Source: Alphaproteobacteria bacterium (GTDB lineage: Bacteria; Pseudomonadota; Alphaproteobacteria; UBA9219). From it: DNA of 40,363 nt. The stretch is from contig JABDAH010000012.1 in NCBI GenBank assembly GCA_013289265.1, positions 1-40,363 on the forward strand, given 5' to 3'. The position numbers and the translations under genes are program-made. Numbering within the stretch: the stretch's first letter is position 1; each line of letters starts with the position of its first letter. The notes under the pieces were generated by a model. It was given only the letters and a program-made list of their open reading frames with translations. It was not told the DNA's origin and searched no databases. Shown one piece after another: positions 27,159 through 29,372 of this stretch.

Positions 27159-29372
27159 ATGCGCCCCAGCCTGCTCTTTCCTCTTTTTGTTCCTATAACC
27201 AGCTTGCGCGGGATTGGGCCGCGCTTGGCCCCTCTTTATAAGAAGCTTTGTGGCGAACATGTGGTTAATTTGCTGTGGCATTTGCCCACAGGTGTAATAG
27301 ACCGCAGCTATACACCCGACCTGAAATATGCCGACCGCGACCGGGTTGCTACCCTTACGCTGACGATTATGGAACATGCGCCGCCGAAGCGGCCCAAACT
27401 CCCCTACCGCATTACCGGTGTGGTGGGTGATGAGCAGGTTATCATCAGTTATTTTAATGCCAAGGGCGATTATCTCAGCAAGCTCTATCCCACCAACGAG
27501 CAAGTGGTCGTGAGCGGCTCGCTGGAACGCTATCACGGCAACTGGAGCATGAACCATCCGGATTATGTCGTGACGCCGGATCGCATCAATGAAATTCCGA
27601 AGTTTGAACCAGTCTACCCATTGACCGAAGGTCTCACCAGTAAGATGCTGCGTAAGACGGTAGAGCAAGCCCTCAGTAAAGTGCCGGAGCTGCCCGAATG
27701 GAATGATCCCGCATTATTAAAACGCGAGGGTTGGTCAGGCTGGAAACAGGCGCTGCTAACCCTTCATACCCCATCTGCCGCTCTGAGCGATGAAGGTAAT
27801 GGCAAATTGCCAGCACGTCGGCGCTTAGCTTACGATGAGTTACTGGCCGATCAACTGGCACTGGCTGTTATTCGCCGTCATCACCGTCAGGGCGGCGGTC
27901 GCGCTTTGCCCGGTACACGTAATTTGCAAGATAAACTTATATCCTCCCTGCCCTTTAAGCTAACGACAGGACAGATGCAGGCGATATCGGAAATCAGCGC
28001 AGATATGGCGGCGCCTAAACGCATGCTGCGATTGCTGCAGGGTGATGTTGGTTCCGGCAAAACAATCGTCGCACTTATGGCAATGTTGCAGGCAGTCGAG
28101 TCCGGAACGCAAGCCACCTTGATGGCCCCTACAGAAATTTTGGCCAAGCAACATCACGCCAAACTGAACGAATTTCTAAAGCCTTTAGGCGGCGAGATTG
28201 CTCTTCTGGTTGGCCGTGGCCGCGGTGGTAACAGACAGACAACTATCGACGGGCTCGCCGACGGCAGCATTAAGATGGTCGTTGGCACGCACGCCTTATT
28301 TCAAGAGGATGTGAAGTTCAAAGATCTGGGCCTCGCCGTCGTCGATGAACAGCATCGGTTCGGCGTCAATCAACGCCTGCAGCTTTCCGACAAGGGCAAA
28401 GGCGTTGATATTCTGGTGATGACTGCAACGCCAATACCACGCACGCTGACACTTACCGCTTACGGCGATATGGATGTATCGCGCCTGGCGGATAAACCCG
28501 CGGGACGATTGCCGATTGATACGCGCCTGATAGATATGGGGCGACTGGACGAAGTGATCGAAGGCGTGAAGCGTCAGATCGGCAAAGGTGCGCAGGCCTA
28601 CTGGGTCTGTCCTTTGGTGGAGGAATTGGAAACCAGCGATCTCGCCGCCGTGACGGAACGCGCGACTTTGTTGGCGAAACAAATAGATTCCCTCCCCCTC
28701 GCGGGGAGGGTTAGGGAGGGGGGAGTAAATTCAAGGGATGTATTTCAAAATTCTGAAACACCGTACCAAGCTTCACCCCCCCTCCCCCGACCCCTCCCGC
28801 AAGGGGAGGGGAGAAGTTTAGTCGGCCTCGTCCATGGCCGCATGGCAACAGATGCCAAGGATCAGGTTATGGCGGCCTTTGCGGCTGGCGAGATCAAAGT
28901 TCTGGTAGCCACCACAGTCATAGAAGTTGGTGTTGATGTGCCGCAGGCGACCTTAATGGTTATTGAACATGCCGAACGTTTTGGCCTGGCGCAATTACAC
29001 CAGTTACGTGGCCGCGTCGGACGCAACGCTGAACAATCTAACTGCCTACTGATGTATCAATCGCCACTCGGCCAAATGGCCAAGGCACGCCTTCAGATGA
29101 TGCGCGAAACAAATGATGGCTTTCGTCTTGCCGAAGAAGATTTGCGCTTGCGTGGCTCCGGTGAGTTACTCGGCACCAAACAAAGCGGGTTGCCGGAATT
29201 CAAACTGGCCGACTTAAACCTGCATCAGGATCTGCTGCATATCGCCCATGACGACGCTAAGCTTATCCTCACCCGCGACCCGAAACTGGATAGCGAGCGC
29301 GGCCAAGCCCTGAGAACCTTGCTGTATCTATTTGAGAAGGATGCAGCGGTGCCATTATTCAGATCGGGTTAA
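27159..29372 (+). CDS. recG: ATP-dependent DNA helicase RecG, with an in-frame palindrome-derived insert
   Basis: RecG (737 aa) remodels stalled replication forks and R-loops. The N-terminal wedge domain (residues about 1-200) precedes helicase domain 1 with GDVGSGKT (K301), MAPTEILAKQH, DEQH at 396-399 and TATPIPRT, then helicase domain 2 with VGLVHGRM, TTVIEVGVDVPQA and QLRGRVGR, ending in the TRG-like motif GFRLAEEDLRLRGSGELLGTKQSG. Residues about 511-553 (starting SLPLAGRVREGG and ending PLPQGEGRS) do not belong to the family; they are the translation of a family B repeat. Without them the length is the usual about 693. The frame is intact, so activity is likely kept. Confidence 0.96.
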   Translation: MRPSLLFPLFVPITSLRGIGPRLAPLYKKLCGEHVVNLLWHLPTGVIDRSYTPDLKYADRDRVATLTLTIMEHAPPKRPKLPYRITGVVGDEQVIISYFNAKGDYLSKLYPTNEQVVVSGSLERYHGNWSMNHPDYVVTPDRINEIPKFEPVYPLTEGLTSKMLRKTVEQALSKVPELPEWNDPALLKREGWSGWKQALLTLHTPSAALSDEGNGKLPARRRLAYDELLADQLALAVIRRHHRQGGGRALPGTRNLQDKLISSLPFKLTTGQMQAISEISADMAAPKRMLRLLQGDVGSGKTIVALMAMLQAVESGTQATLMAPTEILAKQHHAKLNEFLKPLGGEIALLVGRGRGGNRQTTIDGLADGSIKMVVGTHALFQEDVKFKDLGLAVVDEQHRFGVNQRLQLSDKGKGVDILVMTATPIPRTLTLTAYGDMDVSRLADKPAGRLPIDTRLIDMGRLDEVIEGVKRQIGKGAQAYWVCPLVEELETSDLAAVTERATLLAKQIDSLPLAGRVREGGVNSRDVFQNSETPYQASPPLPRPLPQGEGRSLVGLVHGRMATDAKDQVMAAFAAGEIKVLVATTVIEVGVDVPQATLMVIEHAERFGLAQLHQLRGRVGRNAEQSNCLLMYQSPLGQMAKARLQMMRETNDGFRLAEEDLRLRGSGELLGTKQSGLPEFKLADLNLHQDLLHIAHDDAKLILTRDPKLDSERGQALRTLLYLFEKDAAVPLFRSG
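28688..28815. repeat. Family B palindromic repeat inserted in frame within recG
   Basis: The 128-bp element begins TTCCCTCCCC (28688-28697) and ends GGGGAGGGGAGAA (28803-28815). Hairpins CCCTCCCC/GGGGAGGG (28690-28710) and CCCTCCC/GGGAGGG in the right half mark the two ends, and a non-symmetric middle of about 70 bp separates them. It is open in the recG frame and encodes a Pro/Gly/Arg-rich stretch. Confidence 0.9.

Follow-up and report, generated by a model that had tools for sequence, protein, structure and literature searches.

The recG gene of an uncultured alphaproteobacterium contains, in frame, a full-length copy of a multicopy palindromic repeat. Very probably this repeat is a non-autonomous selfish element that inserts widely and is here translated within a tolerant loop of RecG, selection having kept the copies that leave a reading frame open. 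The gene lies at 27159-29372 (plus strand) of the window, by which the whole stretch of 40,363 nucleotides analysed is meant; this stretch is contig 12 of a MAG (G000) of 1.49 Mb and 64% completeness. It codes for an ATP-dependent DNA helicase of 737 residues. The frame is interrupted by no stop codon, and the helicase motifs are intact and invariant, as the earlier note had described for the conserved RecG blocks. The RecG model NF008164 scores 1005 bits against the ORF; the match is split in two, its first part stopping at residue 509. Beyond it lies a MITE/REP-like palindrome of 128 nt (28688-28815, plus strand), coding for approximately residues 511-553 (SLPLAGRVREGG...PPLPRPLPQGEGR). The earlier note had recognised an insert of about 43 residues at this place; the insertion stands, while alignment with the RecG of relatives puts its size at a net gain of about 41, close to that figure.

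The insert has hairpins at both ends. The left inverted-repeat arm (28688-28725, plus strand) forms its own hairpin, CCCTCCCC-CTCG-CGGGGAGGG, followed by TTAGGGAGGGGGGAG, and is open in two of three reading phases. The right arm (28774-28815, plus strand) forms a second one, CCCCTCCC-GCAAG-GGGAGGGG. The central spacer between them (28726-28773, plus strand) fits the consensus ..TTCAGATTCTGAAACA..CCAAGCCTCA.. of the full-length copies in G007, a genome of the same family and a different genus. A second, intergenic copy of about 107 nt (26672-26779) is located upstream of recG, about 2 kb from the recG copy, between the genes of the transcription-repair coupling factor, mfd (23145-26636, minus strand), and of the FAD assembly factor, sdhE (26829-27092, minus strand; weak NCBIfam match, E 2.9e-6). 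Its stretch 26672-26709 is 97% identical to the left arm in recG. The hairpin pattern is found six times in the window where 0.09 would be expected, and the recG insert folds with -70 kcal/mol (z = -4.35, none of 200 shuffles being equally good), which together exclude chance. Half an element is also present at 20264-20289, at the 5' end of the ORF of an ABC substrate-binding protein (20236-22116), whose genuine start codon is probably downstream of it.

The repeat belongs to a large family of copies, counted here as search hits. G000 itself contains 19 matches on several contigs, as copies or arms, and G007 about 18 near-full-length copies with 76-83% identity. Twenty aligned full-length copies, including the one in recG, yield a single consensus of 125-129 nt, TTCCCTCCCCCTCGCGGGGAGGGTTAGGGAGGGGGGAGAACGACC..GGAA....TTCAGATTCTGAAACA.CGC.CCAAGCCTCACTCCCCCACCCCTGACCCCTCCCGCAAGGGGAGGGGAA, with a hairpin within each end and both ends also pairing mutually as terminal inverted repeats. 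Around many G020 copies and some of G007 there is in addition a plain outer inverted repeat (AGCGG.../...CCGCT; approximately CAAAAGCGGYRGAATC...GATTCYRCCGCTTTTG), which is absent at recG and overall only weakly above mismatched pairings (mean 7.2 vs 6.4 of 14). Intergenic copies with this outer repeat are found at loci L131-L170 of G020, at L050 and L066 of G007 and at 26662-26790 of the window. The core may be part of a longer unit or, alternatively, may insert into hairpins. Some copies are mosaics: the inserts in UbiG and TilS (L005 1408-1536; L007 1501-1627) combine a left arm of the window type with a right half belonging to a different type (AAAAACTAAGGATTTAGC...), so that arms seem to be shuffled between repeat families. 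At another locus (L006 1502-1628) an element between apparent tsaD and gpsA provides the final residues and the stop codon of the upstream gene.

How often would such a repeat leave a gene open? The lengths of 68 copies of at least 95 nt fall into the three classes modulo 3 as 27/20/21, and 24% (about 0.235) of the phases of repeat copies are stop-free. The chance that a copy has no stop and also a length divisible by three is thus 0.235 x 0.33-0.40, or about 0.08-0.09 per event, and the average insertion leaves a gene open about once in 12. Most in-frame cases have the repeat-encoded peptides SLPLxGRxREGG / PLPQGE in common, which corresponds to a conserved reading phase; MnmE uses a different one.

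Relatives show that the RecG site is normally empty. The gene was found in 95 of 96 relatives. In most of them the loop from LLxxxL(G) to VGLVHGRM is 3-4 residues long, with no peptide there, in agreement with the insertion reading of the earlier note. Wherever a relative does have a peptide in the RecG loop, a nucleotide palindrome is present as well. The loop is filled at the same codon position in five genomes (G000, G001, G020, G006 and G007), the assembled sequence being in frame and open throughout, and is empty in G018, near G020, and in G008, the sister of G006. The net gain is 41 residues in G000, 53 in G001, 53 in G020 and 20 in G006, while in G007 the contigs break within the element. 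These inserts represent at least three repeat types. One arm type is common to G000, G007 and G006; G001, the congener of G000, has a palindrome of another type (CCCTCTCCC...GGGAGAGGG), matched 24 times in its genome; and G020 has a longer one, for which its own genome gives 65 matches. On an IQ-TREE RecG tree built without the insert columns, parsimony gives four changes of the filled state, and the number of independent recG insertions is uncertain because the deep branches are weakly supported. In G022 the recG contig ends exactly at the insert site (end of C172 and C93), perhaps where a similar repeat broke the assembly.

That the element was placed in recG by a repeat-mediated misjoin is scarcely conceivable, even though the source is a MAG and the G007 contig breaks inside the same element. 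Both recG flanks belong to one gene on one contig, whereas a misjoin would separate gene halves, and separately assembled genomes are filled at the same site with different elements, always in frame. Every complete RecG insert is open and a multiple of three in length, a regularity indicating that the cell depends on an unbroken frame across the insert and arguing strongly, on the strength of the reading frames, that the recG copy is translated. The same regularity bears on the idea that the insert never reaches the finished protein, being lost by excision at the RNA level or by a ribosome bypassing the hairpin, leaving a mature RecG of normal length. A hairpin of -70 kcal/mol is very stable and could in principle promote bypassing. 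However, neither process would demand stop-free multiples of three, which are rare in random copies, and an Rfam search of the window at the gathering threshold recognised no known RNA family, introns included; we regard such removal as highly improbable.

A second RecG loop (window residues ~205-217) is filled in genus g2. In G010 it contains a 180-nt palindrome of four hairpins (L085 1187-1366; -131.7 kcal/mol) with 40 matches in its own genome. G014, a close sister of G010, has an unrelated palindrome (GTCATCGCGAG...; L086 1122-1289) at the same loop, with 17 matches in the genome, and both inserts are in frame. Among 24 RecGs, internal inserts of at least eight residues are confined to these two loops; entries at positions 0 and 5 of that insert list are upstream open frame and not RecG. 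It is conceivable, though rather unlikely, that the two loops are landing or exchange sites refilled by several unrelated palindrome families across genera, owing either to attraction by the site (through hairpin-directed insertion or the replacement of one element by another) or to a benefit that the palindrome-encoded loop brings the host.

RecG is one of many proteins affected. About 110 distinct copies were inspected by ORF, and the host proteins were named by NCBIfam. In-frame inserts were found in UbiG and TilS of G000, which bears out the expectation that the same element would be found inside other genes of the host genome. They also occur in PheT of G007, in IleS, ValS, AddA, a YejF-like ABC protein and a CCA transferase of G006, in TrpE and MnmE of G020, and in AddB, TrmFO and a methylated-DNA-cysteine methyltransferase (Ogt) of G001. 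No relative whose match spans the site has an insert at the TilS, UbiG or IleS position, and for UbiG the congener G001 provides a clean empty site. In 109 copies, judged by eye from the ORFs, no gene cut in two by an element was seen; 16 candidate broken-gene junctions resembled, again by eye, neighbouring genes or reverse-strand frames.

Might such loops have been recruited, the palindrome-encoded segment modulating RecG and other repair proteins and being retained as useful? Unrelated palindromes repeatedly fill one RecG loop, and repair and tRNA genes are recurrent targets, as for intragenic REPs (PMC3733652). Against this, the insert sequences are unrelated, that of the window is modelled as disordered, most relatives do without inserts, and metabolic genes are targeted too. 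The same facts are explained by filtering through permissive loops, and recruitment appears quite improbable.

In an AlphaFold2 model computed from 26 family and class sequences, residues 515-550 have a pLDDT below 50 and are all coil, between a helix (491-509) and a strand (555-558), against a mean of 79 for the whole model. The insert models as an unstructured loop between helix and strand of helicase domain 2. The best structural match of the model, RecG of T. maritima (1gm5), has five residues at the site, and model and comparison both support the placement proposed in the earlier note. The inserts in UbiG and TilS, as in RecG, directly precede what, going by these protein families, would be a beta strand.

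Outside the insert RecG is under purifying selection, and the protein with an insert is constrained like those without. For G000 and G001, dN is 0.11 and dS 1.69 with the insert excluded; the values are 0.14 and 1.30 for G020-G018 (filled vs empty) and 0.16 and 1.25 for G016-G018 (both empty). These figures weigh against another explanation, namely that recG has lost its function or is in decay, the insert being tolerated since RecG, which overlaps functionally with RuvAB, is dispensable. RecG is indeed non-essential in many bacteria, and the G000 branch is about twice that of G001 (0.18 vs 0.087). Yet the full-length frame is open, the motifs are invariant, dN/dS is low against a congener that itself bears an insert, and related repeats lie in frame within normally essential genes, those of aminoacyl-tRNA synthetases and tilS. 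Decay is accordingly an improbable explanation. The earlier note had spoken of tolerated inserts in essential-type genes; this suits other conserved genes struck by the repeats, many of which are essential as a rule, while the label fits recG poorly.

Under the reading preferred here, that of a selfish repeat tolerated in a loop, a MITE/REP-doublet-like palindrome with a core of 125-129 bp would have spread through the alphaproteobacterial family, presumably moved in trans by some enzyme and landing anywhere. One element would have landed in, or been exchanged into, the recG loop before the VGLVHGRM strand of helicase domain 2. With the frame preserved in this copy, the ribosome would read through, and RecG would gain a disordered loop, 41 residues over the usual, at a tolerant position, probably with a near-neutral effect on the enzyme. 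Gene-breaking insertions would be lost, the survivors being either intergenic or open-frame in tolerant loops. As for the mobilising enzyme, a RAYT is not supported, because a search for PF01797 found none in G000 (64% complete), G001 or G020, although G020 is rich in copies, and because the RAYT loci fetched from relatives that do have PF01797 were without these arms. The parental element was sought as PF01797, and no transposase with matching ends was found; nor was a target-site duplication obvious in the copy flanks or in the UbiG empty-site comparison.

Protein-coding palindromes are extended here to an uncultured alphaproteobacterial lineage not deposited as Rickettsiales, and to many conserved genes at once. 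With its RecG loops occupied by different repeats in several genera and vacant in sister lineages, the family lends itself to the question of why loops tolerate inserts, and it bears on selfish DNA as a source of new peptide segments in old proteins. It also carries a warning, as profile searches may split genes with such inserts.

The closest parallels are the palindromic elements of Rickettsia. RPEs (Ogata et al. 2000, 2002) are palindromes of ~100-150 bp with inverted-repeat ends, located between genes and in frame in unrelated conserved genes; each codes for a conserved peptide, and in R. conorii a Gmk containing such an insert is both translated and active (PMC10969869, PMC2229807). The window repeat is likewise a multicopy palindrome of ~100-150 bp, intergenic and genic, with stop-free in-frame inserts in unrelated conserved genes whose sites are empty in relatives, so that the parallel drawn in the earlier note holds. 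It differs in its arms, which are very rich in G/C and each contain a hairpin, and in the use of one RecG loop by several unrelated palindromes in the window's family. The host is also not Rickettsia: G001 is deposited as 'Rhodospirillales bacterium', and the nearest relative with a record title is 'Rhodospirillales bacterium isolate bin_270'. In Wolbachia, in-frame palindromes (WPE) occur without inactivation in the homologous-recombination genes addA, addB and priA (PMC4224334). AddA and AddB, as well as RecG, are struck in the window's family too, in another host and with other genes besides. The Wolbachia study included recG and listed palindromic regions only for addA, addB and priA (PMC4224334); it was the only literature found on recG with palindromic elements.

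Intragenic REPs of the GTAG and CGTC families are short hairpin units, often in opposed pairs, that occur in frame in several genera with a bias towards repair, tRNA-synthetase and tRNA-modification genes, and the recB genes of two Xanthomonas species contain different REPs at about one site (PMC3733652). The window repeat also consists of hairpin units and is in frame in genes of these same classes. However, by inspection of the 20-copy consensus, the GTAG/CGTC tag is absent at the stem base, and no RAYT flanked by the arms of the window repeat was found. ERIC, Correia/NEMIS and QMITE1 are small non-autonomous MITEs whose open phases become fused to genes; terminal inverted repeats are present in most of them. 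The window repeat shares the terminal inverted repeats; it differs in that no TA target duplication is recognised and no parental IS is assigned to it. The repeat is of the same kind as RPEs, WPEs and intragenic REPs; its host sets it apart from RPEs, and the missing tag from the GTAG/CGTC REPs. That unrelated palindromes have refilled two RecG loops in several genera is more than the recB precedent shows.
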